Origin: Closterium sp. NIES-65
Taxonomy: Eukaryota; Streptophyta; Zygnematophyceae; Desmidiales; Closteriaceae
DNA: 64,000 nucleotides
Reading direction: 5' to 3'
Assembly: GCA_948144175.1 (NCBI GenBank)
Contig: CANXME010002334.1
Coordinates: forward strand, 186,001 to 250,000
Under the pieces are notes generated by a model. It saw nothing but the letters and a program-made list of their open reading frames with translations. It was not told where the DNA came from and ran no database searches. Every line of letters begins with the position of its first letter. Positions within the stretch are counted from its first letter, which is position 1. The translations under genes were made by a program, and so were the position numbers. Below are positions 1 to 64,000 of this stretch, in pieces.

Positions 1-416
1 CCTTCAGCCTTGGCTCTGGCTCTGTTTCTTGGTCGTCTACACACTCGTCCTCTGTTCTTGGCTCCAGTTGTGAGGCTGAGATGTATGCCACAGCCATGGC
101 TGCACAGGAGCTACACTGGCTCACCTACCTGCTGACCGACCTTGGAGAGCGGCCTCGTTCTCCTCCAGTGCTATACGTAGACAACAAGGCCGCCATTGCC
201 TTGTGTCAAGAGCACAGACTAGAGCATTGAACGAAGCACATTGCTCTGCGTTACTTCCTCGCTCGAGAGTTGCAGCAGCGTGGTCAGCTTCGTCTTGCTC
301 ACGTGGCCACTCGGGCCAACACTGCTGATATATTCACCAAGGCACTTCCGTCTGCTGATCATCAGCGTTTTTGTACTTTGTTAGGCCTTGTGCCCACGTT
401 TCCTCGCTTGCTGTAG
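1..416 (+). pseudogene. Ty1/copia polyprotein remnant (RNase H end)
   Basis: The third forward frame reads the C-terminal RNase H region of a copia polyprotein. It contains SSCEAEMYA, the YVDNKA motif and NTADIFTKAL near the end, all also present in the intact element at 9558-15476. A TGA at 228-230 interrupts the frame after 'RLEH', where the intact copy has arginine, and the frame then resumes to a TAG at 414-416. The window cuts off the rest of the element. It is a dead or damaged relative of the intact copia element, not a separate gene. Confidence 0.9.
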
Positions 417-641
417 ACTTTGCTTTTACTGCGATCTATATATATGCATGCATGCTTGCTCTGCTAGGTAGAGATCACTGTGCTGTTGTTGTTGCATATA
501 TACCTCTGCATGTGAACTGGTCTTGTGGCCTTTGCTTGTGCTCAGTGTGTGTGGTGACGTTGTGATCCACCCTGAGCTTGCTTTGCTTCTCTTGACTGGT
601 CTTGTGACCCTTCATTCTCCCCCACTTTGCCTATGGGGGTG
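417..641 (+). other. copia 3' untranslated tail with polypurine tract
   Basis: Non-coding stretch between the polyprotein stop and the 3' LTR. It ends in CTATGGGGGTG, which matches the polypurine tract just upstream of the 3' LTR in the intact copy (about 15671-15681). It primes plus-strand synthesis in this class of elements. Confidence 0.7.
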
Positions 642-775
642 TGTGAAAGTATATGCATGCTATATATGTGTAGGCTGTAGTGGGGTAGCCAATATGGGGT
701 GCAGCCCCGTTTAGGGTTTCATACTTGTACCCTACTCTTCCATAGTGCATTCATTCCTGCTGCTAGATTCTAACA
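642..775 (+). repeat. 3' LTR of the decayed copia element
   Basis: Starts TGTGAAAG directly after the polypurine tract and ends TTCTAACA, keeping the TG...CA LTR ends. It shares blocks with the 132-bp LTR of the intact copy (for example the segment around TAGGCTGTAGTGGGGTA) but has diverged, so this is an older insertion or another subfamily. The 5' LTR lies outside the window. Confidence 0.75.
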
Positions 776-1344
776 ATATCTGCATCACTTCTTATCATTC
801 AACAATACCATACCTGTTTGCTGCTCGCTCGTTGGTCTCGTTTTGGAGAATTCGCATGCAATCCACAGTATGCCATACAAGTGGGAGAACTGCTACGCCA
901 ATTAAAAACCTACTACATGAACACTGAAGCGTTTGTGCACAGCACGTACCGTATTGATGTTTCCTGCGTGCTTGTGAGTCGACTCAAAAGGAAACTGCTA
1001 CGCCAAGTAGAACATAGGCGAGCACTGAAGTGTGTTGGTGCACGTATTGATGTTTTGTGCGATGCCTTGGGAATGTTTCCATTCGTGCGCGGTCTAAGTG
1101 GTGGGCTGACAAGTGGTCTTTTTGAACGCGTACAACGCTGTTCTTACTATCTGATAAAAGGTTGGCCTGATAGTGTAGGGGGTCGTAGGAACATGCCCTA
1201 AGACTCAGACCCAATGTGAGCCTGGAATCAGGGCAGCCATATTGCCACCAAAAGCATTGCACCAATCACAGTTGGATCTTAAAAAGCAACGTCTCTTCCA
1301 GGTGCTCCCTCGCAATGGATACTCTTGAGGCACCTAAAAAAAGC
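776..1344. repeat. Spacer with a direct duplication and palindrome
   Basis: No gene is seen. A block starting GAACTGCTACGCCA (about 882-955) recurs in diverged form at about 990-1060. Between the copies lies the palindrome TGAGTCGACTCA at 975-986, one of the family described for this window. A degenerate relative (CTTGAGGCACCTAAAAAAAG) is at 1324-1343. Confidence 0.6.
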
Positions 1345-1745
1345 GTGAATACCGTACCCCAGTTGATCCGATTGGTTCTCCTTGGTCCTCAATGGAGATA
1401 CAGCGCGGTACTGTAGTCCAAATCACAGAAGGACCTTGGCAATAAAAGTACGGTACCCCAGTTGCTCCAGTGGGTCCTGGGTCTCCCTTGCACGTACTGC
1501 ACTGCTGCCCATGCGTTCCCCTCTTTGGCCCTCTGTCACAGAGGCCCGTTGAAGATAGAGGTACCCCAGTTGCTCCAGTGGGTCCTGGCCTGGGCCTCCC
1601 TACCACATACCGCACTGCTGCTGCCCATGCGTTGCCCTCTTCGGCCCTCTGTCACAGCTGCACCTTGAAGATATAAAGTACCCCAGTTGCTCCAGTCAGT
1701 TCTGGGCCTCCCCGGCACATACCACAGCACCCCTGATGGTGCCTT
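1345..1745 (-). repeat. Four partial copies of the propeller gene's last exon
   Basis: Four tandem, diverged copies (about 1345-1410, 1445-1545, 1552-1640, 1668-1740) of the end of the final exon of the neighbouring minus-strand gene. Each keeps a stretch equivalent to 'GRPRTHWTNW', for example 'GRPRTDWSNWG'. They lie beyond the stop codon at 1767-1769, so they are duplicated exon edges or possible alternative last exons. Confidence 0.65.
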
Positions 1746-1766
1746 TTGAACCCCCACCAAGAACGT

Positions 1767-4700
1767 TCACAGTGTGACCTTGAAGATGTAGGTAGCCCAG
1801 TTGGTCCAGTGCGTTCGTGGCCTCCCCGGCACATACTGCACGGCGCCCCACGCATTCCCCTGCTCGTCAATGCCTGCTGTCATGTAGTCTCCGTATCGCA
1901 CTGCCTCAGCAAACCCCATGTACCCTGGAATGGGAGAGGGCAGGTGGGGAGTGGGGGAAAGGCGGGATTACGGGCATTGGGGCGAGGAGGGGAAAACGAA
2001 AAGGGGGACTTGCGGGTCTGCATGCATTCTCCCCTCGTCCATGCCTGCTGTCATGCAGTCGCCGTACCGCACTGCTTCAGCAAACCCCATGTACCTGGAA
2101 TGGGGGAGGGAGGAGAAGCGGAGAAATGGATGGAAGCAGGACTGATAAGCGGGCGTTCTCTGCCTCGTCAACCTCTGCTGTCATGTAGTCGCCATACCGC
2201 ACTGCTTCAGAAAACCCCATGTACCCTGGGATGGGGGAGGGTGGAGGAGGACGGTGGGAGGGGACGGTTTGAGGAATCGTGCGCTTTGCCCTTGACACAG
2301 CATTGGCAGCAAGGGAGTAAGAAATCCGCGTGCATTGAGGTGGTTTTTGAGGCGCCTCAATACCACCTCAGTGCCCTTTGCCCTTGACACAGCATCAGCA
2401 GCAAGGGAGTAAGAATCACCACAGCCTATCCTGCTCAAGCCACATCGCTCACTCACCCGAGTAGTCATCCAATGCTGCCCCGCCAGCACCAGCAACCACC
2501 ACGTCTCCCGCCGCTGTCTCTCCGTTCACAGTCGCATACGCAGCAGAGGGGTAATAAGACGGCCCTGCCAGCGACACTGCCACGATCCCCCTCCCTCGGC
2601 TGTTCATCGCTAAAGACGGCTGGATCAACCCGTTCCCCTTCACCCCAACCATTCTGAACCGCTCTAGAACCACCTGTAACGGCTGCCACCGCCTTGTCGG
2701 AACCAGTGACATGCGCAGGCGTGCTATCACAACGTAAGGGCCCTCGACCTGTAATATGGAGGTGCCAGTCATAAAGGTGAGCCACATTTGCTTCTTCACC
2801 GGTGCCACTACCACTCCTCGAATGTCCGTGCTTGAAGGGTCTATAGGTTTGATTGTTGTCCCATACTCCCATGCCAATGGCACAGGGCTCCATTTTTGTT
2901 TCACATAGCCCGTCGTGAAATATTCCGGGCAGGTTGTTGCAGCGTAGAAGGTTTGTACGCGGGAAAGCGCCTGTTTTGTGCCCAGGAAGCTTGTCCCCGT
3001 TATAAGAAACGCCCCTATGCGGTTTAGGGTTGTGAATGCCTGTGTGTCTTGGTTGTATCCGAAATACATTGTTCCGCCGTTGGTGTAGTCGAATGGCGTA
3101 TCTGCCGCTACTTTCTGCGGCCAAACGGTGTAGTCGGGTATGGAAGGGTTGTCACTAGTGGGGATGGCTATACGGAGGATGAAAGTGTTGGTGGGGCGAG
3201 ATAGCTGTACTTTGGATATAGCACTGGAGGATGGAGGGGATGGGCGGGGGAATAGCGTGGAGAAAATGGGGGATGAAGGGTGTGAGGGAAAGGGGGGAAT
3301 CTGGTAAATGGGGGGAATGTGGGGGCCGGGGAAAACTGGCATGGATGGAAAGGGACCAGCTTACACTGTGATGAAACAAGACAAGAGGTTGAAAGCGGTT
3401 GAAAGCTGTTGAAAGGTGTTGAGAGCAGTGTAAGGTGGGCGCACTCACAAGATGCTGACTCCGAAGTAACCGTCATCTTCGTACGAGAAGTGGTTGGCTG
3501 AGACATAGAAACCTGGTTGCCATGCATGCATGGCGGCAAGGCAGGCATGATAGGAACGGAGGCACGGAGGCATGGAGGCATGGAGGCATGGAGGCATGGC
3601 AGGCATGGAGGCACGGAGGCATGGAGGCATGGCAGGCATGGAGGCATGGCAGGCATGGAGGCACGGAGGCATGGAGGCATGGCAGGCATGGAGGCATGGC
3701 AGGCATGGAGGCATGGAGGCATGGCAGGCATGGAGGCATGGCAGGCATGGCAGGCATGGAGGCACGGAGGCATGGAGGCATGGCAGGCACGGGCATGCAC
3801 ATAGACAAGTATGTATGTCATGTGGTGCGCATATGGTATGTAGGCATAAAATGCAGGAACGGTTTGCAGATACCACATATCACATGAGCTAAGCACTCCG
3901 CACACCCTACTGGACCCACTCTGCACCGCTCTTGACCAATGCAAAAAGCGCAGCAGAGCACAGCACCGCACTACACCTCTGCATCTTACCGTATCCGTCC
4001 GTGCCTATCTGAGGGTAGTCCACTGCATTACAGTGGGAGGGGAAGGGGCGCAGATGGGGAGGGAGGGGGAGAGGTTTCGAAGGAGGCAACGGGGGAAGAA
4101 GGGGGAACAGAATGGGGAGAAGGCGCCTTAGCACACGAATTCAGACACAGAAGGGAGGAAGCTTGCACAGGAGGTTTTAGTTAAAAGAGGTGCTGGAAGG
4201 GAAAGTGACTCACTGAAAGTGACTAGGCGTTTGGTTGGGAAGTTGAGAGGGGGGCGGAAATCAGCGTGTGAATTCTTCCCATCGTTCCTGTGCCATGCCA
4301 TACCATTCCATGCCATGCCGTACCATCCCATACCATGCCACGTCACGCCATGCAATGCCATGCCATGCCGTGCCATGCCGCACACAGGACAGGATGTCCA
4401 CAGGGATGGAGAAGAGGACTTGATGTGGTGGTGGTAGCTAGCAATCAACAGCACGTAACCTCGTGTACTGAAACTATATGCTGTGGTAACACAACGTGCA
4501 TGGTATGGTAACACAACGTGCATGGTATGGTAACACAACGTGCATGGTATGGTAACACAACGTGCATGGTATGGTAACACAACGTGCATGGTATGGTAAC
4601 ACAACGTGCATGGTATGGTAACACAACGTGCATGGTATGGTAACACAACGTGCATGGTATGGTAACCCTATCATAATGTGCCAACAGTGCACATAATTTC

Positions 4701-7411
4701 CCATTCACAGCAGACTCTCACGATGAGGGGATGAAGAAGAGGTTCCACGGTTTGGTGGGGTCGGGAGTGGTGGAGGCAGCAACGAGCACCCCAGTCCCCA
4801 CTGTTGTCCCGTCCGCCCGATACCTCGTCTGCCCAAACCTGTCATATGCGTTCTTGTCCCCCCCCGACTGGAAGAACGGGGTGAGGAGGAGGGAGGGAGG
4901 GAGGGGTGAGGAGGAGGGAGGGAGGGGTGCGGAGGGAGGGAGGGAGGGGTGAGGGGGGAGGGGAGAGGGAGGGGAGAGGGAGGGGAGAGGGAGGGGAGAG
5001 GGAGGGGAGAGGGAGGGGAGAGGGAGGGGAGAGGGGGCGCCTCAAAGCCCGATACCTCGCCTGCCCCAACCTGTCATACGCGTTCTTGCCGCCCCCAGAA
5101 TGATGAAAGAGAGGGGGCAGGGGAGACAAGGGGAGTCTTTTGAGGAGCAGCGACATCCAGAATCATCCAGCATCACCCAGCATCACCCAGCATCACCCAG
5201 CATCACCCAGCAGCACCCAGCGTCACCCAGACACTGTGATGCACCCCCATCAGCACTCACGGTCCAGTATGTAGCGAGGTAGAAGCGTTTGGAGCGGTGG
5301 TCATACGTGCATGTCATGTCGCCAATGGCGTCTCCCTTGGGCGCGCCCTCGTATGCCCCCATGTTGCGTGGCAGGGCGTTGAAGAACTGCCACAGGGGGG
5401 GTGTGGGATGGCGCAGCAGGGGAGGAGGGAGGAGGGAGGGAGGGAGGGAGGGAGGGAGGGAGGGAGGGAGGGAGGGAGGGAGGGAGGGAGGGAGGGAGGG
5501 AGGGACAGACAGGCAGGCAGGGAGGGAGGGTGTGCAATGGCGTCTCCCTTGGGCGCGCCCTCGTATGACACGATGTTGCGTGGCAGCGCTTTGAACAACT
5601 GCCGTGGGGGGTGGGCAGGCCCAGGGGTGAAGGAGGGAGGGAAAAGGGGAGGGGAATGGCAAGGCGGGGCGCCCTCCCTCCACCAACCTCGAAAGAGGGT
5701 GTGGGCCAACCGAGTCATCCTGACACGTCACGTGGGTGTATCTACCATATATTGCAGGACAGCCTTTCATATCCCAGCCTTGAACTGATACCCTCGCCCT
5801 TATCTAAACGGTTTAGATTCGCTCACTGAAGCCCCTCCCCTCCTAGCTCTCCCACCCCTCTCTCCCCTCCTCTCCCTCCCCCCGCCCCTTCTCTCCCCAC
5901 CGCACCTCGTTGTGTGGCGTGATTGCTGTCAGTTGCTGCCCCTTGGTATTATACACTACCAGAGCTGTGTGGGTGGGTGAGAAAGACGTGTTTGTAAAAG
6001 AAGAGACATAAAACGTGTTGCGGAAGATACTATTTCGATGAAGGGGTGTGCGTGTGTGCGTGTCAGGTGAGGAATGTTGCGATTGGAAAAGCATACATTG
6101 CATCAAGATAAAGATCAAATACTCGTCTGAAAGGCGGAATGCGGTGACCACGTACCAGTGTTGACTGTATGGAGGATAAACCCGTTCCCCACACACATGA
6201 CAACATCCGGAGGTGTGACTCTGATCTGAGACAGGGATGCGCGGAGAACCATGGGGTGTGGGGAAGACGGGTGGGGGGGGGGGGAGGAAGAGAAAGAGCG
6301 GAAAAGAAGGCCGGGAATTGGAAGGTTGAAGGGTGGGGAAGATGCGAGAAAGGTGATGACGGTGGTATCTCCAACGCGTTGACTTTTGAAGCGCCTAAAA
6401 AATCGTCTTTTGAGGCGCCTCAAAAATGGAGAAAGGTGATGACGGTGATGTCTCCAACGCGTTGACATCCACTGAAGGATTTCTGTAATAGTTGGGCGGC
6501 ACCACTCACCATGCTTCGGTTGTATCTGGGCGGGGTGCCACTGTTAATCAGCGACTTCTGGTTGATCCCAGGGAAACCCACCACCGGGTGACTTAGAGTC
6601 GACTCGAAAGGCACCTGGATATCTAGTCGCCAGCACTCACCATGCTTCGGTTGTATCTGGGCGGGGTGCCACTGTTAATCAGCGACTTCTGGTTGATCCC
6701 AGGGAACCCCACCACAGGTTTCCTCACAACCACTTTTTTTAACTCCACCGCCGCCGCCGCAGTCCCTGCCCCTGCCCCTGTCCTTGCCCCTGACCCTCCT
6801 GGTGCCCTTGCACCCGCCGTCTTGTCTTTCCCGCGTTCCCCCTGCCTGCCGACCGCCCCTTGCTGCGCTACCTCCTCCGCGGACTCTTTTTCCGCCCACA
6901 ACCGCCGCAACTCGGGATTCCGCGGCCATCTGCGCCGCGCGCCAGGCGTTACCCCGCCGCCGCGGCGATTTGCGGACGCGCCGTGGATTCGGCGCGGAGA
7001 GACCTCCCCACTGGCGACCCCGGGTCGCGGAGCAGCGTCAGGCGGAAGGTCCGACAATATCTCTGCGGAGTCCGCAGCGGCTGCGCTTTCAGCGGTAGTG
7101 CGGACATCGCCGGCGGAATCGGCGAACAAAGAAGTTTCCGCTGTGTGAGCGCCAGACGCGGCGCTCCGCGCCCTCCGCAATGGCGCAATCTTTCCTGTTC
7201 CCGCGTACAGCAGCCGTTCCGTCAGCTTGTGGATGGTGACGGCTGCGCGAGGAGTTCCCGCCTGTCCGTTGGCGGAATGTTTCCGCCAGGGCTGTGCGCT
7301 TGCTGTCAGCGCCGCGGGGAGCACTACTAGCACGAGCGCCAAGTACGCGGTGAGACGGAATAAAGAAAGCTTACGTCGCGCTGGCGGTGCGCGAAATCGC
7401 AGCGACGCCAT
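1767..7411 (-). CDS. Secreted beta-propeller-like protein, multi-exon
   Basis: The first exon starts at 7411 with a signal-peptide-like N-terminus (basic RRKLSLFR, then a hydrophobic stretch ending about residue 40 at ASA), so the protein is probably exported. Exons 7411-6641, 6225-6156, 5964-5906, 5386-5261 and 4867-4722 join in consistent phase with GT-AG borders. Downstream exons are placed approximately at 3522-3449, 3229-2459 and 1925-1767 (stop 1767-1769). The joined protein contains PPDVVMCVGNGFILHTVNT and ALVVYNTKG. This PPD...VG...VN...VY pattern is typical of large secreted bacterial and algal propeller proteins of unknown function. Copies of exon 1's end (6512-6585), exon 4 (5535-5603) and exon 5 (5045-5100) lie in the introns. 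The exact join of exons 5-7 is unresolved. No enzymatic residues are recognised. Confidence 0.6.
2035..2370 (-). repeat. Two more last-exon copies and a GGCGCC palindrome
   Basis: Copies of the 'AVRYGDYMTAG' part of the final exon lie at about 2035-2104 and 2157-2232, upstream of the complete exon at 1767-1925. At 2347-2360 the perfect palindrome TTGAGGCGCCTCAA sits inside a longer inverted repeat (GAGGTGGT ... ACCACCTC, about 2337-2369). On both sides is the same segment (CTTTGCCCTTGACACAGCAT at about 2283 and 2379), so the palindrome marks the junction of a tandem duplication. Confidence 0.75.
3540..3795. repeat. Minisatellite of GGCATGGA/GGCATGGCA units
   Basis: About 255 bp of alternating 8-9-bp units (GGAGGCAT, GGCAGGCAT, GGAGGCAC), in the intron of the propeller gene beside the exon at 3522-3449. 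It creates spurious long ORFs on both strands. Confidence 0.9.
4280..4382. repeat. CCATGCCATAC-type short tandem repeat
   Basis: About 100 bp of 5-6-bp degenerate units (CATGC, CATAC, CATTC) within the same intron. No coding signal. Confidence 0.75.
4485..4664. repeat. 22-bp minisatellite, about 8 copies
   Basis: Near-perfect tandem array of the 22-bp unit containing GTAACACAACGTGCATGG, about 60 bp downstream (in gene sense) of propeller exon 5. Copies are almost identical, so the array is young or kept homogeneous. Confidence 0.9.
4885..5100. repeat. GA-rich tandem repeats and an exon 5 copy
   Basis: GAGGGAGG / GGGGAGAGGGA arrays run from 4885 to 5036. They end in a half palindrome GGCGCCTCAAAG (5036-5047), followed at once by a copy of the 5' part of propeller exon 5 (5045-5100, equivalent to 'YDRLGQARYRA'). 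Confidence 0.7.
5161..5228. repeat. CATCACCCAG decamer repeat
   Basis: About seven copies of the 10-bp unit CATCACCCAG in the intron just beyond propeller exon 4 (5386-5261). Confidence 0.9.
5421..5603. repeat. (AGGG)n tract followed by an exon 4 copy
   Basis: A pure GGGA/AGGG tract (about 5425-5505) is followed at 5535-5603 by a copy of part of exon 4, equivalent to 'LPRNIVSYEGAPKGDAI' on the minus strand. The copy ends before the 3' half of the exon, so it is probably an intronic exon shadow. Confidence 0.8.
6355..6475. repeat. Tandem duplication with palindromes at the junction
   Basis: The block GGTGATGACGGTG...CCAACGCGTTGAC occurs at about 6353-6383 and again at about 6435-6467. Between the copies are TTTTGAAGCGCCTAAAA (6384-6400) and the perfect palindrome TTTTGAGGCGCCTCAAAA (6408-6425). 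Confidence 0.85.
6512..6610 (-). repeat. Exon 1 edge copy plus GTCGAC palindrome
   Basis: A near-identical copy of the last ~75 bp of propeller exon 1 including its GTGAGT donor (compare 6637-6712). The junction between copy and original holds CTTAGAGTCGACTCGAAAG (6592-6610), a slightly decayed TTTTGAGTCGACTCAAAA palindrome. Confidence 0.85.
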
Positions 7412-8214: not shown

Positions 8215-8223
8215 CAACTTTTC

Positions 8224-8446
8224 GGGCATTTATCTTAGCGGTAACACTCATTGGGGTCGATCGCACGCAAGGTAAGCCACGTGTCCAAATCGTAACTAAA
8301 GTATCTTCCGATTGCCTCCATGGTAACCAACGTGCCAGTTTGGTCAACATTATTTCCAGAATGGTAATGAACAGTGCATTCCGAAATCCCAACTGGTAAC
8401 TCGTCAGAACATCCGCGATGTACACCGTACGTACCCTGTATGACTC
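8224..8446 (+). repeat. MULE left terminal inverted repeat
   Basis: 223 bp, from GGGCATTTATC to TGTATGACTC, matching the reverse complement of 20698-20920 base for base as far as I can read. Confidence 0.95.
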
Positions 8447-8471
8447 GGCAAAACTGAAAATGAGATGGATA

Positions 8472-8603
8472 TGTCAGAACTATATAGCTTATACTATTGT
8501 GTAGGCTATAGTGGGGTATCCCATAGGGGGTACAACCCAATTAGGGTTTCCTATTTGTACTCACTTCTTTCATAGTCATTTCATCCTCGTTCTCTCTTTC
8601 ACA
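8472..8603 (+). repeat. copia 5' LTR (132 bp)
   Basis: TGTCAGAAC...CTTTCACA with TG/CA ends. It contains an AACTATATAGC TATA-like stretch that could be the promoter. It is very short for an autonomous 7.3-kb copia element. Confidence 0.95.
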
Positions 8604-8639: not shown

Positions 8640-9535
8640 TTGGGCCCACCGAAGCGCGCCCCGAGGCGCGCGTCCTTTTTTTTTTTTTTAGCGACCCGTC
8701 GTGTCGCCCTCCCTAGCGGCCTGTCGAGCCGCCCTACCTTGCGGCCCCGCCGCCCTATCGCGCGGCCTCGCCGCCCTAAGTCGCGGCCTGCCCGCCGCCC
8801 TACTTCGACGGCCCCGCCGCCCTACTTCGACGGCCCGCCCGCCGCCCTACGTCGCGGCCCCGCCGCCCTACGTCCCGGCCCGCCCGCCGCCCTACTTCGA
8901 CGGCCCGCCCGCCGCCCTACGTCGCGGCCCCGCCGCCCTACGTCCCGGCCGCCCGCCGCCCTACTTCGAAGGCCCGCCCGCCGCCCTACGTCGCGGCCCT
9001 GCCGCCCTCAGCTACGCGGCCCCGCCGCCTTCTGCTACACGGCCCTGCCGCCCTCTGCTACGCGGCCCCGCCGCCCCTCGATTGCGGCCCCGCCGCCCTC
9101 TGCTACGCGGCTCCGCCGCCCTCTGCTACGCGGCCCCGCTGCCCTCTGCTACGCGGCCCCGCCGCCCTCTCCTACGCGGCACCGCCGCCCTCTGCTCCGC
9201 GGCCCCGCCGAGCCGCCCAGCATCAGCCGAGCCGCCCAGCAGCAGCCGAGCCGCCGCCGAGCCGCCGCCGCCTGAGCCGCCGCCCGGGCCGCCGCCGAGC
9301 CGCCGCTGCCTGCGCCGCCGAGCCGGAGCCGCCCGAGCCGCCGCCCAGCCGCCCAGCAGCAGCCGAGCCGCCGCCGAGCCGCCGCCGCCCGAGCCGCCGC
9401 TGAGCTGCGACCGAGCCGCCGCCCGAGCCGCCCGAACCGCCCGAGCCGCCCGAGCCGCCCGAGCCGCCCGAGCCGCCGTGCTGCTGTTCCTGAGCTGTGT
9501 TCTTCTGCTGCTGACCTACCCGACTCTCCCAGCCC
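8640..9535 (+). other. GC-rich repetitive copia leader
   Basis: About 900 bp of GC-rich, Pro/Arg/Ala-coding-like repeats (units such as CCGCCCTACGTCGCGGCC, then GAGCCGCC repeats) between the primer binding site and the polyprotein ATG. One forward frame stays open from 8701 to a stop at 9538-9540, just before the ATG at 9558 in another frame. It could be a structured leader, an upstream ORF or a captured repeat. No protein family is recognised. Confidence 0.6.
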
Positions 9536-9557
9536 GGTGAGACTTCCAGCTGCTGCC

Positions 9558-12500
9558 ATGGCCACCCCCAATGTTCTTACTTTTGACGCTGAGGGGAGGG
9601 CCATTGACTTTGCCGTCTGGATTGAAGACCTGCAGCTGTACTTACTGTGTGATGCGATAGATGAGGTCTCTCTTTTTGACTTTGTCTCTGGCGCTGTTCC
9701 TGCCCCACCTGCTGATGCTGACTCTGCCGTTCGCTCCAAGTGGGCGACCCGCGATGCTGCTGCACGTCTTGCTGTGCGTCGCCACCTCCCTTCCTCTGAG
9801 CGTGCCCACTTTAGTCAGTGCAAGACCGCTCAGGCCTTGTACGACGCTGTAGTTGCACGCTACTCCTCCCCTTCCTCCGCTACCCTTAGCCGCCTCATGC
9901 TACCGTTTCTCTTCCCTGACCTCGCTTCCTTTCCCACTGTCGCTGACCTTGTTACCCACCTCCGTGCTAGTGACACCCGCTACCGCGCTGCCCTTCCTGC
10001 TGAGTTCCGCGCTGCGAACCCTCCTCCCATGTACATCACCCTCTACTTTCTCGTCACCCGTCTCCCTGAGTCCCTTCGTGTCGTTAGGGACCAGTTTCTC
10101 TCTGTCTGTCCCACCACTCTCACTGTCGACCTCCTTGAGGAGTCCCTGCTAGCGGCTGAGAAGAGTATTGTCGCTGTAGGGGCCTCTCGGGGTGACCCTC
10201 GCACCCCCATCTTTGAGGGGTGTGGTCCTTCCCCCCTGCTGCCCTCTGTCGCCTCTGCCGCTGCGGCCGACCTCACTGGTTTTGAGTCGGTCGGCGCGGC
10301 GTGTGCCCCCAGCGGCAGACGCCGCTCTGGCAAGAGCAAGGGGGGCAGGGGAGCGGGTGGAGCTCGAGGGGGCGGTGGAGGAGGCGGTGGGGGTGGCGGG
10401 GGGAGTGGGGGTGGCGGTGGGGGTGGTGGCGGGAGTGGAGGTACTGGTGGCGGCGGTGGAGGCGGAGGTGGCGGCGGAGGTGGTAGCGGAGGAGGCGGTG
10501 GGAGCGGTGGGAGCGACGGTCCTGGTGGGGGAGGTGGCGGCGGAGACGGGGGTGGCGGTGGAGGCGGGGGTGGCGGTGGAGGCGGGGGTCGGAGTGGCTC
10601 GTCCCAGCGGAGCAGCTCTGGGGGTGGTCAGCGCCAGCAGCAGCAGCAGCAACAGCAGCAGCCGCAGCAGCAGCCACAGCAGCAGCAGCGCTCTCGCACC
10701 GTCCCCGGCCCTCAGCAGCTCCGTGAGTGGTACTTGCAGCGTCAGCGTGGTGGTGCGCTTGGTCCCTGCCCCTACGTTCTTCGCACAGGTGACCGTGCAG
10801 GGGAGAGGTGTGGAGGCGCCCACACAGCCCGCCGCTGCTTTGGCCGCCTGACCGACGCCTGGCGTCAGCAGTTTCCGGAGGCCGCTGAGATCCCCCGCTG
10901 GGGAGAGCTGTCTAGGGCTGGTGTAGCTATTTATGATCTTGATTTTGATGTTATTCTCTCTGCTATGTATGCTGTGACTGGTAGTGATGAGGATGACTGT
11001 TACCGGTGTTTCCCGCCCGACCCGGGCATTGGTACTGCCGCGTCAGGTACTAGTGAGGCTGCTGCTCTAGGTGCCAGTGCGTCTGTGCTCTCAGGTGCTG
11101 GTGAGTCTGCCCTCTCAGGTACTGTGTCGGCTTCGGCCTCTCACACCTTCACCCTTGACTCTGGAGCGTCTCGCTCCTTCTTTAGGGACCGCACCACTCT
11201 CACGCCGCTGAGTCGGCCGGTTGCGGTGTCCCTGGCTGACCCCTCTGGGGGGCCTGTCCTGTCTCGCTTCTCCACTGTCCTCCCGTGTCCGGCGGCCCCC
11301 TCTGGCACCCTGACTGGTCTCTACCTCCCCTCGTTCTCGACGAACTTGGTGAGTGGTGCTGACCTCCAGGATGCGGGTGTCCACCAGTTCACCCCTGCTC
11401 GTCAGCGGGTGACCCACTGCACGGAGGCGGATACAGGTCGCCACCTGGCTACGTTTACACGTCGGCCAGGGTCGAGCCTGTACACACTGACCACTGCTTC
11501 TCCTCCAGGTGCTGAGTCTGGTAGGGTCCCTTCGTCTGGTCAGGTGTTTGCTGCAGCGTCCAGGTCTGGTCCTGAGTCTGCCCCCTGCTCGTGTCGTCGT
11601 CTGTCTCACGAGACCCTCCTCTGGCACCACCGCCTTGGCCACCCCTCTCTGCTTCGGCTCAGAGGCATGGCCTCGCGAGTCCTTGTGTCTGGTCTTCCCC
11701 GGTCTCTCCCTCCCCTTCCTCCGGGCCCTGGCCCTACCTGTGTCCCCTGTGTCGAGGGGCGCCAGCGTGCTGCCCCTCACTCCTCCCAGTTTCCTCCGAC
11801 AGAGGCCCCGTTGCAGACGCTTCACATGGACGTGTGGGGCCCAGCCCGCGTCCGTGGACAGGGTCAGGAGCGCTACTTCCTGCTGGTGGTTGACGACTAC
11901 TCGCGTTACACCACAGTCTTCCCCTTGCGCAGCAAGGGTGAGGTCACTGCGGTGTTGATCGACTGGATCCGCGCAGCTCGTCTCCAGCTTCGGAGGAGCT
12001 TTGGCTCTGACTTCCCTGTTTTGCGTCTGCACTCGGACAGAGGCGGAGAGTTCTCCTCTGGCCTCCTGAGTGCCTACTGTCGTGCACGAGGCATCCGTCA
12101 GACCTTCACGCTTCCGGACTCACCACAGCAGAATGGGATTGCTGAGCGCCGCATTGGCATGGTCATGGACGTCGCTCGTACGTCCATGATGCATGCGGCT
12201 GCTCCCCATTTTCTGTGGCCGTTTGCGGTCAGGTACGCTGCGCACCAGATCAACCTCCACCCCAGGGTCTCTCGACCGGAGACCTCCCCAGCCCTGCTGT
12301 GGACGGGGAAGGTTGGCGATGCGTCGGCGTTCCGGGTCTGGGGATCTCGGGCGTTTGTTCGCGACCTGTCTGCGGACAAGCTGTCCCCTCGTGCTTCTCC
12401 CTGCGTCTTCCTGGGGTTCCCCCCCGACGCCCCTGGGTGGCAGTTTTACCACCCCACCTCTCGACGTGTTCTGTCCTCCCAGGACGTCACGTTCGACGAG

Positions 12501-15681: not shown

Positions 15682-15813
15682 TGTCAGAACTATATAGCTT
15701 ATACTATTGTGTAGGCTATAGTGGGGTATCCCATAGGGGGTACAACCCAATTAGGGTTTCCTATTTGTACTCACTTCTTTCATAGTCATTTCATCCTCGT
15801 TCTCTCTTTCACA
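15682..15813 (+). repeat. copia 3' LTR (132 bp)
   Basis: Same sequence as 8472-8603 by eye, starting after the polypurine tract and followed by the GGATA target duplication. Confidence 0.95.
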
Positions 15814-15818
15814 GGATA

Positions 15819-20920: not shown

Positions 20921-20929
20921 CAACTTTTC

Positions 20930-43800: not shown

Positions 43801-45964
43801 AGTGGAAGAGCAGCGGTTGATGGCGCTGGTACTGTTGATGCCACCACTACCTGGTGTGTGGATAGGGATACCAACCAACACACAGGGGTCTATTTTTTAT
43901 GCGCCTCAAAGCAGAGCAGCGGTTGGCGGTGCTGGTACTGTTGATGCCACCACTACCTGGTGTGTGGATAGGGATACCAACCAACACACAGGGGTCTATT
44001 TTTTATGCGCCTCAAAGCAGAGCAGCGGTTGGCGGTGCTGGTACTGTTGATGCCACCACTACCTGGTGTGTGGGCGCGGGCATGTGCAGTGCACACACAA
44101 AGGAGGGTCGGTTTTTCTTATGGTACCTCTAAAACAGGGGCTGGCACTGTTGACACGGCCAGCACCACTGCCTGGTGTATGGGCATGGCCGTGCACACGG
44201 TTGGGTTGAATTTGAGGCGCACCGAAAAACGGATATTACAATCATTGGGCTGGGAAAGCTAGGAGCAGAAATGAAGCCGCACTTACGTGTAACGGAATAA
44301 TCTGATTGGCCGCTCTCATCCTGTTGATAGCCGCGGCGCCTCCCACTGTCTCCTCACTAACCACAATGCAGTCCAGGCTCGGATCCGAACCTCCCCGCTC
44401 AGGTACGGGATCTTGGATTGGCGCAAAATCAAGCCGAACCAAGCCGGGAGCCTTGCCCTGTCGCTGTAGCTCCTGCTGCAGAAACTTCTCGGCAACTTCC
44501 TTGCGCTCGTTGTAGGGCTGGATCATCTGAGGGGAACGGGGATGAGGGGAACGGGGATGAGGGGAACGGGGATGAGGGGATGGGGATGAGGGGAACGGGG
44601 ATGAGGGGAACGGGGATGAGGGGAACGGAGATGAGGGGAACGGAGATGAGGGGAACGGGGATGAGGGGAACGGGGATGAGGGGAACGGGGATGAGGGGAT
44701 GGGGATGAGGGGAACGGGGATGAGGGGAACGGGGATGAGGGGAACGGAGATGAGGGGAACGGAGATGAGGGGAACGGGGATGAGGGGATGGGGATGAGGG
44801 GAACGGTATTCGGGAACGGGGATTCGATTCGAAGAACCGGGATCCGATGGGGGAACGGGGATTCGGGGAACGGGGATTCGATTCAGGGGACGGGGATTTG
44901 ATTCGGGGAACCGGGATTCGATTTGGGGAACGGGAATTCGAGAAACGGGGATTCGGGGAACGGGAATTCGATTTGGGGAACCGGGATTCAATTCGGGGAA
45001 CTTGGATTCGGGAAACGGGGATTTTGGAAACGGGGATGAGGGGAATGGGTATTCGGGGAATGGGGAAGGTGGTAATGGGGATAAGGGGATGGGAATGAGG
45101 AGAAGGGAGATGTGAAAGTGGAGGGAGAGGGAAGATGGAAGGAAGTTGGGGAAGGAGAGGGGGGTTGATTCACCGCACCTCACACCTCACTGCCATGCTT
45201 CACCGCACCTCACACCTCACTGCCATGCTTCACCGCACCTCAACCCTCACTGCTGTGCATCACCGCACCTCACTGAGATACTTCTTGCTCAAAAGAGGTC
45301 CATCCGCAATCCCTACAACAATGCAGCTGCTGCTACCGCCACCGCCGCTGCTGCTGGTGATGGTATCTTCCCCCCCTTTGTCTGGTGTCGCCGCCACCAT
45401 CGCTACAGCCGCGCGCAGCAGCGTGCGATGCCCGTCGTGGAAGCGATCGAACGTCCCCGCTACAACCACCCCGCGGAACCTGCCACGTGGCAGCAGCTCA
45501 TTGGACGACGGATCAAAGCGGGTCGCTGGCTCCATTTCCCCTGACGCAGCGTTCCCCTGTTCGGTTCCTTGAAGAGCACTTAAAGCTGGTGCACTTTCTA
45601 AATTTACTATCGAGTTCGTTTGTACCGGATCATTCGCACCCTCCGCGTCTGCGATGCCGCTGCCAGCGAGAGCGTTCGATCCGCAGCGAATCTCGGTTTC
45701 CGAAGCGAAATCGCCTAAATCCGTCGATAACTCTTCGCGTAGAGGTTTCGCCGAACGTAAAGTTACCAGGCTCGGTATTCCCGAGGTTTTACTTTGCAGG
45801 AACGGGAGGCTGCGACTGTTGAGCGAACCAGGAGCTACTCCGCGTCTCGCCTCCGCTCCTCCCCGAGCATTCCGCGAAATACTGTTTGCAACTGGAATGA
45901 ATGCCAGCGATATCGGCGGTCGCTGCGCAGAAAACAGCACTCCCGCCATACACGCACCGCACAC
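40880..45964 (-). CDS. COASY: Bifunctional CoA synthase (PPAT + dephospho-CoA kinase)
   Basis: Phase-consistent exons: 45964-45269, 44526-44287, 43850-43705, 43455-43025, 42846-42721, 42528-42380, and 42037 to about 41711. PPAT domain: VVAGTFDRFHDGH (the nucleotidyltransferase HxGH-type site), VVGIADGPLLSKK, MIQPYNERK, CIVVSEETVGGAAAINR, and ISKLSSSLLR. Dephospho-CoA kinase domain: P-loop GLTGGIASGKST, VDCDRLAHRAYEPGT, DGQIDRAALG, MMVEAGSDQTVDEVWVV, and the C-terminal ARLAHADVAIYN. It catalyses the last two steps of CoA synthesis from phosphopantetheine. Domain order matches animal COASY; most plants have two separate enzymes. The intron 43704-43456 appears to use a GC-AG donor (AAG|GCGAGT). 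After the kinase domain the protein continues into a region resembling the start of an HD-type phosphohydrolase domain (RWAALMWRLDVDADVAERWF); its 3' exons, near 41170-40880, are not firmly resolved. The N-terminal ~150 residues are low-complexity. Confidence 0.85.
41400..41520. repeat. CCCCCTGCCACTCAA tandem repeat
   Basis: About five 15-bp units (CCCCCTGCCACTCAA) in a 3' intron. Flanking it, two diverged copies of the ACCTGCGG(T/A)GG segment (about 41389 and 41589) look like another duplicated exon edge. Confidence 0.8.
43850..44190 (-). repeat. About 108-bp repeat grown from CoA-synthase exon 3
   Basis: Two full copies and one partial (about 43903-44010, 44011-44080, 44145-44185) of the acceptor and start of exon 3 ('VVVASTVPAP'). 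Each unit ends in a decayed half palindrome TTTTTATGCGCCTCAAAG (43893-43911 and 44001-44016), and another relic TTTGAGGCGCACCGAAAAA is at about 44212-44230. Confidence 0.82.
44525..45060. repeat. 15-bp GGGGAACGGGGATGA minisatellite
   Basis: About 500 bp of near-exact 15-bp units (GGATGAGGGGAACGG and variants with GGATTCG) filling the intron between CoA-synthase exons 1 and 2. It begins right at the exon 2 acceptor (44527), so the polypyrimidine tract on the minus strand is built of repeat units. Confidence 0.9.
45175..45270 (-). repeat. 30-bp repeat carrying the exon 1 donor
   Basis: Three to four copies of a 30-bp unit with TTCACCGCACCTCA. On the minus strand each includes AGGTGCGGTGA, the same sequence as the real exon 1 donor (GAG|GTGCGGTGA at 45269/45268), so the 5' splice site itself has been amplified. 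Confidence 0.8.
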
Positions 45965-49366: not shown

Positions 49367-52300
49367 TCACTCCCTCCCCAGTTGCTTCTCCTTAGCGGTC
49401 AGTGGCACGTAGCGCACGCCCATGGCTGTGGTGCGAGTGACAGTGCCGTCTGCACCCTTGTCTATCACCTCTAGGTCCTGGGAGGAAGCAAGGTAAGGCA
49501 GTGGGGAGGGGGCAGCGGAGGGGAGAAGTGGGCGGAACGAAATTCTCAATCATCTCATACCGTGACAGTCCTGAGGTGACTTTTGAGTCGACTCAAAATT
49601 CTCAACCATCTCATACCGTGACAGTCCTGTCTGCACCCTTGCCTATCACCTCTAGGTCCTGGGAGGTAGCGCGACAAGGCCGGGGAGAAATCAGGGGAGG
49701 GGAAAGGCAGGCGGGAGTGCAATTTGTTTGCGAAGATTTGAGAAGATTTGAGGCGCCTCATAAAATGACAGTGCCATCTGCACCCTTGTCTATCACCTCT
49801 GGGTCCCGGGGGGTAGCAAAACATGGCAGGAGGGAGGAGGGGGACGGCGGCTGGTCACTACTCGAGGCGCCTCAGCACGTCGCATTGCGGCAGCACAGAA
49901 CGTACAGCTGAAGCCAGGAGGCAGAATGGTGATTCCCGTTATCTTTGACACGTCTCAAAAGCATTGCAACGGCACCCCACAACCTATCCTGCCCCTGATT
50001 ACCCCCAATTTCCCAAAATTTGTTCCCTTTTGTTCCCCCCTCCCTTCTCACCCTTCCTTCCCCCCTAATCCTTCTCCCCCTCCCTTCCCCCCTCCCTTCT
50101 CACCCTTCCTTCCCCCCTAACCCTTCTCCCCCTCCCATCCCCCCTCCCTTCTCACCCTCCCTTCCCCCCCTCCTTCCCACCCATCTTCCCCCCATCACCC
50201 ACCCCCCCCCCCCCCCCCCCCTTCCGCACACCTGCATGAGGCGGCCAACGGGAATCACCATTCGGCCACCGGGCTTCAGCTGATCCACCAGGGCCTGGGG
50301 GAGCTCTGGTGGGGGGGGAAGGACAGGGAGAGGTGGGGAAGGATGGGGAGGGGTGGGGAGGGGTGGGGAGGGATGGGGAGGGGTGGGGTGGGGTGGGGTG
50401 CGGTGGGGTGCGGTGGGGGGAGGGGTGGGGTGGAGGGAAAGGGTAAGGGCAGGGAGAGGTGGGAGGGCGCATCCATTCTCCCTCATGGCTTCAGCTAATC
50501 CTCCGGAGCCCGGGGGAGTTGTGGGGGGGGGAAAGAAAAGGAGGAGAGGGGAGGGGTGGGGTGAAAGGATGTGGGTGAGTGGTAAAGCAGGGAGAGAGGG
50601 GAGGGTGGTTCCGGCTGGTGGATCAGCTGAAACCGGGTGGTGAAGAGGAGGGTGGTTTCATGTAGCTGGTTGTGCTGTGCGTGTGATGGTGACTTGACAG
50701 CGCATGCGGACAGCAGCCGAGAGCGTGACTCGATGCACAGGGTCTCACGGTAGCAGTTTTGAGAATTCTCAAAAACGATGCACAGGGTCTCACGGTAGCA
50801 GTTTTGAGAATTCTCAAAAACGATGCACAGGGTCTCACGGTAGCAGTTTTGAGAATTCTCAAAAACGATGCACAGGGTCTCACGGTAGCAGTTTTGAGAA
50901 TTCTCAAAAACGATGCACAGGGTCTCACGGTAGCAGTTTTGAGAATTCTCAAAAACGATGCACAGGGTCTCACGGTAGCAGTTTTGAGAATTCTCAAAAA
51001 CGATGCACAGGGTCTCACGGTAGCAGTTTTGAGAATTCTAAAAAACGATGCACAGGGTCTCACGGTAGCAGTTTTGAGAATTCTCAAAAACGATGCACAG
51101 GGTCTCACGGTAGCAGTTTTGAGAATTCTCAAAAACGATGCACAGGGTCTCACGGTAGCAGTTTTGAGAATTCTCAAAAACGATGCACAGGGTCTCACGG
51201 TAGCAGTTTTGAGAATTCTCAAAAACGATGCACAGGGTCTCACGGTAGCAGTTTTGAGAATTCTCAAAAACGATGCACAGGGTCTCACGGTAGCAGTTTT
51301 GAGAATTCTCAAAAACGATGCACAGGGTCTCACGGTAGCAGTTTTGAGAATTCTCAAAAACGATGCACAGGGTCTCACGGTAGCAGTTTTGAGAATTCTC
51401 AAAAACGATGCACAGGGTCTCACGGTAGCAGTTTTGAGAATTCTCAAAAACGATGCACAGGGTCTCACGGTAGCAGTTTTGAGAATTCTCAAAAACGATG
51501 CACAGGGTCTCACGGTAGCAGTTTTGAGAATTCTCAAAAACGATGCACAGGGTCTCACGGTAGCAGTTTTGAGAATTCTCAAAAACGATGCACAGGGTCT
51601 CACGGTAGCAGTTTTGAGAATTCTCAAAAACGATGCACAGGGTCTCACGGTAGCAGTTTTGAGAATTCTCAAAAACGATGCACAGGGTCTCACGGTAGCA
51701 GTTTTGAGAATTCTCAAAAACGATGCACAGGGTCTCACGGTAGCAGTTTTGAGAATTCTCAAAAACGATGCACAGGGTCTCACGGTAGCAGTTTTGAGAA
51801 TTCTCAAAAACGATGCACAGGGTCTCACGGTAGCAGTTTTGAGAATTCTCAAAAACGATGCACAGGGTCTCACGGTAGCAGTTTTGAGAATTCTCAAAAA
51901 CGATGCACAGGGTCTCACGGTAGCAGTTTTGAGAATTCTCAAAAACGATGCACAGGGTCTCACGGTAGCAGTTTTGAGAATTCTCAAAAACGATGCACAG
52001 GGTCTCACGGTAGCAGTTTTGAGAATTCTCAAAAACGATGCACAGGGTCTCACGGTAGCAGTTTTGAGAATTCTCAAAAACGTTGCACAGGGTCTCATGG
52101 TAGCATTTTTGAGAATTCTCAAAAACGATGCACAGGGTCTCACAGTAGCAGCCCCCACGTTGATGGCATCGTAGGACCAGGAGCATGGCTTCATGTGGCC
52201 AAGATACTCACAGAGCCAGGAGCATGCAGAGCAACAGAGCTTGCAGAGCAACAGAGCATGCAGAGCAACAGAGCTTGCAGAGCAACAGAGCGTGCAGAGC

Positions 52301-55300
52301 AACAGAGCGTGCAGAGCAACAGAGCACCAACAAGGTCTCACCCGGAGCAGCAGCCCCCACGTGGATGGCATCACACGGGCGAGCCTCAGGGTACCCCTCC
52401 TGCCCATCTGAGTTGACTTTGAGTCGACTCAAAGGTCATGCACAGCGCAAGGGCATGCACAGAGCCGGCCAGAGCGAGCAGAGAGTCTTACCTGGAGCAG
52501 CAGCGCCCACGTGGATGGCATCATATGGAATGGACCCACGTCTACAGGGCCAGCCAGAGCATGAACAGGGACTCACCAGCAGCAGCAGCGCCCACGTGGA
52601 TGGCATCATATGGGCCCGCCTCAGGGTACCCCTCCCGCCCATCCGCCTCTGGGAAGGAGGACGGAAGAGGGAGGAGGAGGGATTGGTGAGATGGGCGGAG
52701 GAGACGGTGAGATGAGAATTGACTGCGAGGCGGTGGTGGGAGTAAAGGAAGGCGATAGTAGGGGGAAGGTGGGTGGGACGGGCGCGATGCAAGGGACACT
52801 TTGATATGAACAAGGAGAGACGTGGCAGGTAGGGAAAGGGAGAGACGTGGCAGGTAGGGAAAGGGAGAGACGTGGCAGGTAGGGAAAGGGAGAGACGTGG
52901 CAGGTAGGGAAAGGGAGAGACGTGGCAGGTAGGGAAAGGGAGAGACGTGGCAGGTAGGGAAAGGGAGAGACGTGGCAGGTAGGGAAAGGGAGAGACGTGG
53001 CAGGTAGGGAAAGGGAGAGACGTGGCAGGTAGGGAAAGGGAGAGAGACACGGGGGTTGAGAAACAGGACCTCCACAGCAGGGTAGCATGCAGAAGAACAC
53101 TCGTCTTCCCTCCTTCCCCTTCTTCCCTCTTTCCCCTTCTTCCCTCTTTCCCCTTCTTCCCTCTTCCCCCCTCCCTAATCCCTCCCTTTCGCCACCCCCC
53201 TCCCCGTTTCCCCCTCATCCAAACCCCACCATGTCAACCAACCATGTATCGACAGCTGTCCACCGTCCATCAGTTCTGCCGCCCGGCCGGCCTGCACTGC
53301 CGCCCGGGACCGCTCCACGAGCTCCGGAATGTGCTCCACGCCCACCGCCCGCCCCGTGGGGCCCACCAATAGCGCCATGACAGCTGTCAGGTAGCCCGAT
53401 CCCGACCCCACGTCAAGCACGCGGTTACCGGGTTGCAGGTGATTCTCTAGAAAGGCAAGGCAGTAGCCGTGCTGGTGGGGCAAAGAAGGGGGTTGGAGTG
53501 GGGGGAATGGCGGATGGTAGGGGGTGATGGGGGTGGTGAGGAGGGGAATTTGAAGGGGGAAGGAGGAAAAGAGGTGACCATTACTCACTCGTAGCCCCAC
53601 CACACGTCCAGAACGCGGTTATCCGATTACAGGTGATTCTCTAGAAAGGCGCGGCAGCAGCCGTGCGGGTTGGGGGGTGGCGATGGCAAGGAGGTTGCAT
53701 CTACAAGTGACCGAAAAGTGAGCAATGTCAGAATCCCAACCACTAGACCACTGGGATAAAAGGGCTTGTTTCAGTAGCGGGTCAGTGCGCCCATAACCCC
53801 CCAGGCGAACGCGCCTGTAACCCTCTCCAGGATCAATCGGACATCCACAGTGCAGATCTACTGACACCCCCCCACACTGGGAGGCCCAGGACTAAGCACA
53901 GCGGTAACGGCCTACATGTGCATACACCGGGAATCGAACCCGAGACCGCTCTGATACCATGTAAGAATCCCAACCACTAGACCATTGGGATAAAAGGGCT
54001 TGTTTCAGTAGCGGGTCAGTGCGCCCATAACCCCCCAGGCGAACGCGCCTGTAACCCTCTCCAGGATCAATCGGGCATCCACAGTGCAGATCTACTGACA
54101 AGCAAGGTATCGCACCAGCATTTAGAATAGTTACGTACCATGTGAGGTGCGGAAATGGTGACGTTGAAACCTGCTCATGAACGGCGAATGCCATCATGTC
54201 ATCCCACATGCCATGCCACAGGTCACATTCCATGCCCACACATGCAACACAGGCCACATGTCATGCCACATGCCATGCCATGCCACAGCGCACAGTGCAC
54301 ATGCCACAAAAGCGCATGAAGGATTATGGAGACATAAGCATGCGATAAAAATCGTCAGCCATCCGACGTGAGCCATACCACACATGACATACACATGGCA
54401 CATGCATCGATACCTTACATTCACTTATGGGCTGGGGACATTGTCATAAGCCATTGACTTGGTCAACGCACCTATGGGCTGGGGGAAGTTATCATAGGCC
54501 CTTAAATTGGTCAACGCACCTATGGGTTGTGGGGAATCATCATAAGCCGTTGACTTGGTCAACACGTAGTCAGCACGGTCAATCTGCTTCATGGCCTCCG
54601 CGATGCGCTCTGATTGGACGATTCCGCTGCCTGGCAGGTAGCACGGACAGGACGAGGCAGGGGTGGTTGAGGAAGAGGCAGGGGTGGTTGAGGAAGATGT
54701 TGCGGCGACTGAGGCTGCTCTAGGCTCGAGGTATTGTGATGAATGTCAGAATGAATGTCTGCAGGATGGTCAGCATGGCTGTCAGCATGAATGTCGGAAT
54801 GGATCTCAGCATGCATGTATGTAAGCATGCAAAGTGTCAGCATGAATGTCAGCATGAATGTCTACCTAACATCTAAATGAACTTCTGCATGAATGTCCGC
54901 ATGAATGCCAACTTGTCTGTATGTCAGCACGAATGTCAGCACATGTATGTCAGCATGACTCAGCATGAATGTCTAGAGAATCCTCCAAAAGAACGATTCA
55001 TGGTCAACACAAACTGTGGTTGTAATTATAGAGGCATGAATATAGGCATCGCAATCCATCCCTTTATTCACGCACGGAGCAGCTTGTCGACCATCTCGCC
55101 GTTACTATCGCCATGGCATGTCCAGCTCATTCTTTCGCTCCGCCTCACACGCTCCCAGAACTCCGAATCCTTCTCTCCTCCCCCGTCTCTTGCGCCACTG
55201 CCACCCTCTCGTGGCGCGATCGCCGGCTCCGTCGCTTCCGTCCCCCCCGCGTCGCCACCCTTGCCAAAATGGTAGTTGTCGCTATGCACCCCGCCTTTCG

Positions 55301-56386: not shown

Positions 56387-63242
<6,856 letters not shown>

Positions 63243-63264
63243 GTGAATTCTGATTGCTGCTGGA

Positions 63265-63585
63265 ACGCTGTGAAGTGGTGTGCCTTGATGTGCTGTGAAG
63301 TGGTGTGCCTTGATGTGCTGTGAAGTGGTGTGCCTTGATGTGCTGTGAAGTGGTGTGCCTTGATGTGCTGTGAAGTGGTGTGCCTTGATGTGCTGTGAAG
63401 TGGTGTGCCTTGATGTGCTGTGAAGTGGTGTGCCTTGATGTGCTGTGAAGTGGTGTGCCTTGATGTGCTGTGAAGTGGTGTGCCTTGATGTGCTGTGAAG
63501 TGGTGTGCCTTGATGTGCTGTGAAGTGGTGTGCCTTGATGTGCTGTGAAGTGGTGTGCCTTGATGTGCTGTGAAGTGGTGTGAAT
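63265..63585. repeat. 25-bp minisatellite, about 13 copies
   Basis: Identical GTGGTGTGCCTTGATGTGCT plus GTGAA units immediately following the donor of WD40 exon 8 (63242). Confidence 0.95.
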
Positions 63586-63587
63586 GC

Positions 63588-63830
63588 AACCAGCCATCTG
63601 TCCGCGACGTGGTGGGGCTCGCAGGCTTACCATCATCCGGGAGTGCTCGTGTCGACAGAAACCACTGTCTTCCAGGTGAGCATGACTGTTGCTGGGATGC
63701 CTTGAGTGAGCATGTTTCGATGCACTGGAGAGTGCAACCTGCTGCCTGTCAGCAAGGTGGTGGGGCTCGCAGCTTACCACCACCCCGTTGCTCGTGTCGA
63801 CAGAAACCACTGTCTTCCAGGTGCGCTGAT
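63588..63830 (+). repeat. Two copies of the WD40 exon 8 end
   Basis: At 63588-63676 and 63735-63820: diverged copies of 'QPPVSDVVGLAAYHHPGVLV' plus the STETTVFQ end and its CAGGTG donor, each with frameshifting indels relative to the original at 63158-63242. Confidence 0.88.
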
Positions 63831-63831
63831 T

Positions 63832-63916
63832 CTTGAGGCGCCTCCCCTTTGATGGGAATCAGCTCAAAAGTCGACCGCTGTTGCCCAGGTCAGCTGGCTT
63901 TGGAGGCGCCTCAAAG
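63832..63916. repeat. Two further GGCGCC palindromes
   Basis: CTTGAGGCGCCTCC (63832-63845) and CTTTGGAGGCGCCTCAAAG (63898-63916), flanked by two copies of AAAGTCGACC(G/A)CTG(T/G)TGCCCAGGT and so again at a duplication junction. Confidence 0.85.
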
Positions 63917-64000
63917 TCGACCACTGGTGCCCAGGTGAGCTGACGCCAGGAAAGGGGAGGTGCCTTCTGAATGAGGGATCTGTCTCTCCTTCATAAGGTT

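Follow-up and report, generated by a model that had tools for sequence, protein, structure and literature searches.

The window, that is, the whole stretch of 64,000 nucleotides from Closterium sp. NIES-65 analysed here, has 56% G+C and many tandem arrays, and its host genes comprise a copia polyprotein, a MULE transposase, a bHLH gene and CoaE-like exons, which together indicate eukaryote nuclear DNA. Another ten open frames had no match in Pfam, and neither an Rfam match nor a tRNA (using bacterial settings) was detected in the window. The copia open frame (9276-15473) is flanked by identical 132-bp stretches at 8472-8603 and 15682-15813 that are probably parts of its LTRs, their identity suggesting a recent insertion. 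A 226-bp stretch beside this element (8221-8446) has an inverted counterpart some 12 kb off, on the far side of the MULE transposase gene (20698-20923, 99.6% identity). Related 65-bp stretches (83%) at 33128-33219 and 35373-35456, containing other GCGCC- or GCGC-rich palindromes (AGGCGCCGGCGCCT, ATAAGCGCCGGCGCTTAT, AAGCGCATATGCGCTT), possibly represent another repeat family.

Throughout the window, palindromes are found that share the consensus TTTTGAG-NNNN-CTCAAAA, with TCGA, GCGC or AATT as core. Perfect 18-mers (TTTTGAGNNNNCTCAAAA) occur seven times outside the array at 50731-52151 (at 6408, 49581, 58436, 58548, 61405, 61541 and 61572) and 30 times within it, where the core is AATT and one of the copies (29 + 1) is embedded in a 20-bp palindrome. 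Simulated sequences contained 0.15 palindromes of 18 bp, of any kind, per 64 kb (20 order-1 Markov sequences), and none of 10 simulated sequences contained the pattern at 0 or 1 mismatch; at 2 mismatches, 8 sites are observed outside the array versus 0.2 expected from 10 simulated sequences. Allowing up to 2 mismatches, 52 sites are obtained, which group into 16 loci. A first-pass annotation had described this family with GTCGAC, GGCGCC and GAATTC cores and had counted at least 20 sites. The family is borne out and, as checked within the 64-kb window, is enriched over simulated sequence (7 + 30 perfect copies versus 0 simulated), and the count holds for sites though not for independent loci.

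The core of the 21 sites found outside the array at up to 2 mismatches is GCGC in 11 and TCGA in 6, with GCAC, TGCA, GCGA and ACGT once each, and it is self-complementary in 19 of them, self-complementarity being no search criterion. Half-sites outside palindromes are not enriched, with 3 TTTTGAG versus 5.3 expected and 5 CTCAAAA versus 6.2 expected, both expectations being somewhat inflated by training of the model on the full window with its palindromes. Variants that define a locus are mirrored in both arms, as observed for the core itself (TCGA, GCGC, AATT), for the outer arms TCGAG (58427) and GGTGG (2345), and for a lost T (52417), whereas scattered single-base differences at 972, 6384, 22377, 43894, 6592 and 63899 are unmirrored and are read as probable later decay. 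The insert therefore looks like one short sequence put on both ends, head to head. At 49581 one arm is longer than the other (AGGTGAC-TTTTGAG), and the same outer AGGTGAC recurs at 42681, where it is confined to one side and no clear repeat is present, and on both sides, decayed, at 6592; evidence for one-sided arms is thus provided by 49581 and, more weakly, by 42681.

Junctions between the inserts and flanking direct repeats were collected by eye for 12 loci, including two with three mismatches (6592, 43894) and leaving aside 49746 and 52417 as well as the four of the 16 loci where a clear repeat is absent (1323, 42603, 42681 and 49943, each with 2 mismatches). Coordinates are compiled in Table 1, together with those of the latter two diverged cases, the empty sites and the minisatellite. 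Repeat lengths at the 12 junctions are 10, 21, 26, 26, 31, 34-35, 38, 45, 55, 69-81, 87 and 91 bp, and their copies are 70-100% identical, so that the underlying events seem to differ in age. Eight of the 12 junctions have repeats no more than 3 bp from the palindrome, both left and right, while 49581, 58427, 2345 and 6592 carry 5 to 21 bp of additional insert on at least one side. Seven loci (972, 22377, 43894, 49581, 50757, 58548 and 63899) have inserts of 18-25 bp, and at the other five (2345, 6384, 6592, 58427 and 61374) longer arms, filler or multiple palindromes bring the insert to 40-81 bp. No target-site consensus is apparent by eye at these junctions.

Table 1. Palindromic inserts, associated repeats, empty sites and minisatellite in the window.
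Positions	Strand	Feature	Repeats and remarks
969-992		Insert, palindrome TTGTGAGTCGACTCAAAA	888-968 and 993-1061, 70% identical, most diverged
2324-2370		Insert, 12-bp filler plus slightly decayed longer palindrome, arms TGAGGTGG-TTTTTGAG, core GCGC	45 bp, 2279-2323 and 2371-2415 (93%)
6384-6428		Insert, two palindromes (6384 decayed, 6408 perfect)	38 bp, 6346-6383 and 6429-6466 (95%)
6588-6627		Insert, decayed TCGA palindrome (3 mismatches)	91 bp, 6497-6587 and 6628-6718 (96%)
22377-22394		Insert TTTTGAGTCGACTCAAAT	Flush on both sides with 21-bp repeats, 22356-22376 and 22395-22415 (95%)
23078-23190	+	Empty site, paralogue of 22377 target	One repeat copy, no palindrome; short right-hand flank match
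43894-43912		Decayed GCGC palindrome (3 mismatches)	87 bp, 43807-43893 and 43913-43999 (97%); again at 44000
49574-49598		Insert, AGGTGAC plus perfect TCGA palindrome	31 bp, 49543-49573 and 49599-49629 (97%)
49746-49763		Decayed GCGC palindrome in diverged local repeat	62 bp off left, 13 bp off right
50731-52151		31.6-copy 45-bp minisatellite	26-bp host segment plus 19-bp AATT palindrome; host segment at both ends
52417-52434		CTTTGAGTCGACTCAAAG inside diverged duplication	43 and 50 bp off
58110-58275	+	Double empty site, paralogue of 58360-58640	Without both inserts, each repeat single-copy; frame open throughout
58422-58463		Insert, perfect 36-bp palindrome 58427-58462	58387-58421 and 58464-58497 (91%)
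58548-58567		Insert TTTTGAGTCGACTCAAAA+CT	10 bp, GGAGCCCTAC (100%)
58776-58805	+	Second empty copy of 58548 target (CTCGGAGCCCTACAGCGTTG)	No insert
61374-61454		Insert, three GCGC palindromes	55 bp, 61319-61373 and 61455-61509 (96%); whole unit again at 61510-61589
63897-63916		Insert GCTTTGGAGGCGCCTCAAAG	26 bp, 63871-63896 and 63917-63942 (88%)

Repeats abutting the palindrome (within 8 bp on both sides) are present at 8 of the 16 loci versus 330 of 3000 random positions (binomial p about 1e-4), this control covering the whole window, tandem arrays included, and being therefore weaker than an array-free one. When the two array loci (50757, 61374) are omitted and random positions are taken outside arrays, the figures become 6 of 14 loci versus 50 of 3000 positions (p about 6e-8), a left/right flank comparison that sustains the initial claim of a non-random placement at joins. 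Nine of the 11 coordinates on which that claim was based are among the 12 junctions, two of them (2347 and 6592) with 12-18 bp of extra insert on one side, but at 49747 and 52417 the repeats lie tens of bp off. One further locus, 58427, qualifies as abutting if the outer arms of its longer palindrome are counted as insert. With the search widened to 120 bp on each side, a repeat scoring at least 15 accompanies 11 of the 16 loci versus roughly 10% of 1500 positions. The repeat at 58548 is just 10 bp long (score 10, reached within 120 bp by 24% of random positions), yet it abuts the palindrome. Of the 21 remaining palindromes outside the array that measure 12 bp or more, none shows abutting repeats, and among control palindromes tested for a nearby repeat 1 of 18 was positive (39856).

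Paralogous empty copies allow the order of events to be addressed. At 23078-23190 the single repeat copy runs directly into AAGGC, as the filled 22377 site does after its second copy; compared with the clear empty sites of 58427 and 58548 this one is the weaker case, given the short match to the right of the insert and the lack of a gap there in the global alignment. Filled copies at 58548 and 22377 have a TGA within the palindrome, in the frame common to the empty copies, and the latter keep this frame open where TGA closes the filled ones. Exon-like peptides at 58139 and 23083 gave no Pfam match, and the frames at 58548 and 22377 are only putatively coding. The surrounding stretches, 22851-23250 and 58110-58640, are exon-like and locally duplicated, with one copy open and the others broken by stops. 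Since the empty sites have one repeat copy and no palindrome, the loci are, judging from sequence comparison, very probably insertions with target duplication and not passengers of tandem duplication. Tandem duplication of a palindrome-bearing segment would moreover double the palindrome, and a single one separates the two host copies at 8 of the 12 junctions, which disfavours the passenger reading. Regarding the three origins proposed at the outset, namely an inserted element, a product of break repair and a library artefact, the empty sites support insertion without deciding between element and repair product, and the artefact is disfavoured.

Host sequence stands at both ends of the arrays at 43807, 50731 and 61319 (at 43807 the final copy is incomplete), which is what growth from host-palindrome-host units would produce. 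Local duplication is frequent in the window, as reflected by palindrome-free duplications with unrelated spacers at 1502-1696, 24712-24952, 53725-54100 and others. Spaced duplications without a palindrome make up 12 of 20 listed by hand, and this frequency indicates that the staggered-break type exists independently of the palindrome. The duplicated host unit in 61319-61642 includes CTCTGCAGGTGTGTGAG, which by eye resembles 3' and 5' splice sites back to back, and duplications of this kind could create introns.

The reading that we tentatively favour is a two-sided templated extension of broken ends. Two nicks 10-91 bp apart would produce a staggered break with overhangs, whose fill-in would duplicate the stretch between the nicks and thereby generate the flanking repeats; the widely varying repeat length points to such a fill-in, extending to different distances, rather than to the fixed cut of a transposase. 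Both 3' ends would then gain the same tail, TTTTGAG plus four core bases, from a single short template, for which the simplest choice is an RNA copied by a telomerase-, Penelope- or LINE-type reverse transcriptase; this candidate RNA might contain GUCGACUCAAAA, GGCGCCUCAAAA or GAAUUCUCAAAA, with GUCACCUC perhaps coming next. The self-complementary tips of the tails (GTCGAC, GGCGCC, GAATTC) would anneal, a further fill-in would leave the palindrome between two target copies, and recombination at the resulting host-palindrome-host units might subsequently seed minisatellites. Considering both the 10-91 bp repeats and the occurrence of spaced duplications devoid of palindrome, a repair product with a templated insert is preferred over an element.

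Mirrored variants are to be expected under two-sided extension if the palindrome is made afresh from one half-sequence, and so are the unequal arms at 49581 if each end begins copying independently. Against it, neither a capable template RNA nor a reverse transcriptase or telomerase gene for this task was found within the window, the sole reverse transcriptase seen there being that of the copia element. Target ends beside TTTTGAG mostly show, by eye, no match able to prime on the supposed template, with exceptions at 6384 (GTTGAC), at 49581 and 63899 (where the target itself contains an A-run or CTCAAAAG) and, with a weaker match, at 58548 (AC). One-sided extensions joined elsewhere would also be expected, yet half-sites are not enriched, and the constant core distance is left unexplained; the 4 of 16 loci without clear repeat and the extra filler at 6592 and 2345 likewise speak against it. 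A bolder form of the proposal, in which a dedicated telomerase-like or domesticated reverse transcriptase tags both break ends and the self-complementary tip serves sticky-end repair, leaving a signature palindrome and seeding minisatellites, is regarded as speculative and rather unlikely.

The main rival, which comes close behind, is the capture by end joining, between filled-in staggered ends, of a pre-existing DNA with a fixed sequence, either palindromic or folded as a hairpin (or of a small RNA paired with itself). We consider it possible, though somewhat doubtful: the clean-ended inserts of 18-20 bp at 22377, 43894, 50757 and 58548, the spaced duplications that occur without palindrome and the lack of half-site enrichment are all in its favour, but a source of at least three mirrored variants would be required, and the longer single-side arm at 49581 is not accounted for. 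A minimal selfish element, multiplying itself by a LINE-like, target-primed mechanism that reverse-transcribes a very short RNA made from inserted copies, with both ends primed on the same tail, appears unlikely. Target-primed insertion typically gives variable target duplications, which agrees with those observed here, as do the several core subfamilies and the differing ages of copies implied by the 70-100% repeat identity. Against it, longer copies with a body are lacking in the window, the A-tail never extends beyond 4-5, and no preference for TTTT/AA-type targets is seen by eye. The inserts, 18-81 bp of palindromes and short filler, have no element body with poly-A or another 3' tail of the LINE/SINE kind, and half-sites are not enriched.

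Much less probable are the readings in which the palindrome precedes the duplication or remains from a departed element. Palindromes are able to stall replication, and hairpin-driven slippage at a palindrome already in place might promote local duplication, in line with the arrays at 43807, 50731 and 61319. Such slippage would nevertheless duplicate the palindrome too, the empty sites contain one repeat copy and no palindrome, and the 21 other palindromes lack abutting repeats; an empty site could be remade by deletion between repeats, but the frame that TGA closes in the filled copies stays open in the empty ones, and we therefore hold this order of events to be improbable. Excision footprints of a DNA transposon with terminal inverted repeats starting in TTTTGAG are judged slightly more improbable still. 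Palindromic remnants between target duplications would look similar, and the insert is, like the ends of a transposon or MITE, an inverted repeat, though one without interior; but repeat lengths at the 12 junctions run from 10 to 91 bp where one fixed length would be expected, a complete element bearing these ends was not noticed in the window, and half-sites stand at chance level. The reading to which we give least credit is a library or assembly artefact (linker or chimera). In its favour are the three cores, GAATTC, GTCGAC and GGCGCC, which we take to be EcoRI, SalI and KasI/NarI sites, although to our knowledge all 16 palindromes of the form GNNNNC are restriction sites. Palindromes are decayed at several loci, duplicated copies differ by up to 30%, and the inserts at 58427 and 58548 sit in a stretch diverged from its paralogue, for which reasons a restriction-linker origin was dropped.

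If two-sided extension holds, with the same self-annealing tag on both ends, the genome would preserve its staggered breaks in legible form, a novel activity in repair or insertion would await discovery, and a concrete mechanism for minisatellite birth would be at hand, the host-palindrome-host unit at 50731 having now reached some 31 copies. Thanks to the empty sites, the sequence of steps can be tested by DNA comparison alone.

Parts of this scheme have precedents. CST with Pol alpha converts breaks with 3' overhangs into small tandem duplications in cells (PMC8355091), and these resemble the present ones in being direct repeats of tens of bp from a staggered break, which here occur also without palindrome and derive, according to the empty sites, from one original copy; no recurrent palindrome is described at their join in the cited excerpts. 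Sequence added at breaks has been attributed, by inference, to telomerase (PMC2246262), and the resulting interstitial telomeric repeats share with our inserts a templated addition at a break and sometimes a target duplication. Unlike them, as far as that account is excerpted, which describes telomere repeats plus telomerase RNA sequence, the inserts are palindromes with mirrored variants. Tandem short units were not seen at the 12 joins, which bears only tentatively on the telomere repeat of this host. LINE twin priming, as we understand it and as outlined in part in PMC2246262 and PMC2837659, likewise has both 3' break ends primed on one RNA and a target duplication, of variable length as here; the L1 cases hold inverted element sequence, whereas only 18-81 bp palindromes plus short filler are found in the window.

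Other short palindromes can be compared in the same manner. The prokaryote genome collection yielded four matches to TTTTGAGTCGACTCAAAA, two of them from Planctomicrobium, similar to the 4 expected by chance in 257 billion bases, while viral contigs yielded none, and one match to TTTTGAGGCGCCTCAAAA; these counts cover the TCGA form in both collections and the GCGC form in viral contigs, and 0 of the 5 viral and prokaryote matches have repeats at the palindrome. PMC10407611, on the Closterium genome, does not use the string 'palindrom' in its main text, and among the papers listed by searches of the open-licence literature, titles and opening lines of abstracts describe no such inserts. Volvox carteri has short palindromic repeats, some of them nuclear (PMC2670323), which according to the cited excerpts average 50 nt, have 3-5 nt loops and are thought to be organelle-derived in their nuclear copies, in contrast to the loop-free perfect palindromes of 18-36 bp and the 10-91 bp duplications described here; the word 'duplication' is absent from the main text of that paper. 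Yeast mitochondrial GC clusters such as GC42 (PMC4478555) are also short palindromic units with a putative target duplication, but in the portions cited they are mitochondrial, GC42 has 42 nt and their flanks are AG or ACT, repeats of 2-3 bp that do not occur at the 12 junctions. Penelope-like elements of Adineta vaga (PMC3846280) carry palindromes of 18 and 38 bp at ends or inverted junctions, ascribed to self-priming, together with target duplications; by the excerpted description, however, these elements are large and their target duplications measure 8-10 bp. Thus, on the basis of these tests and of the open-licence literature, no tested family matches in all defining features, and the inserts, which join a constant-armed palindrome with a self-complementary core to target duplications of widely varying length, may reflect a process not yet described.
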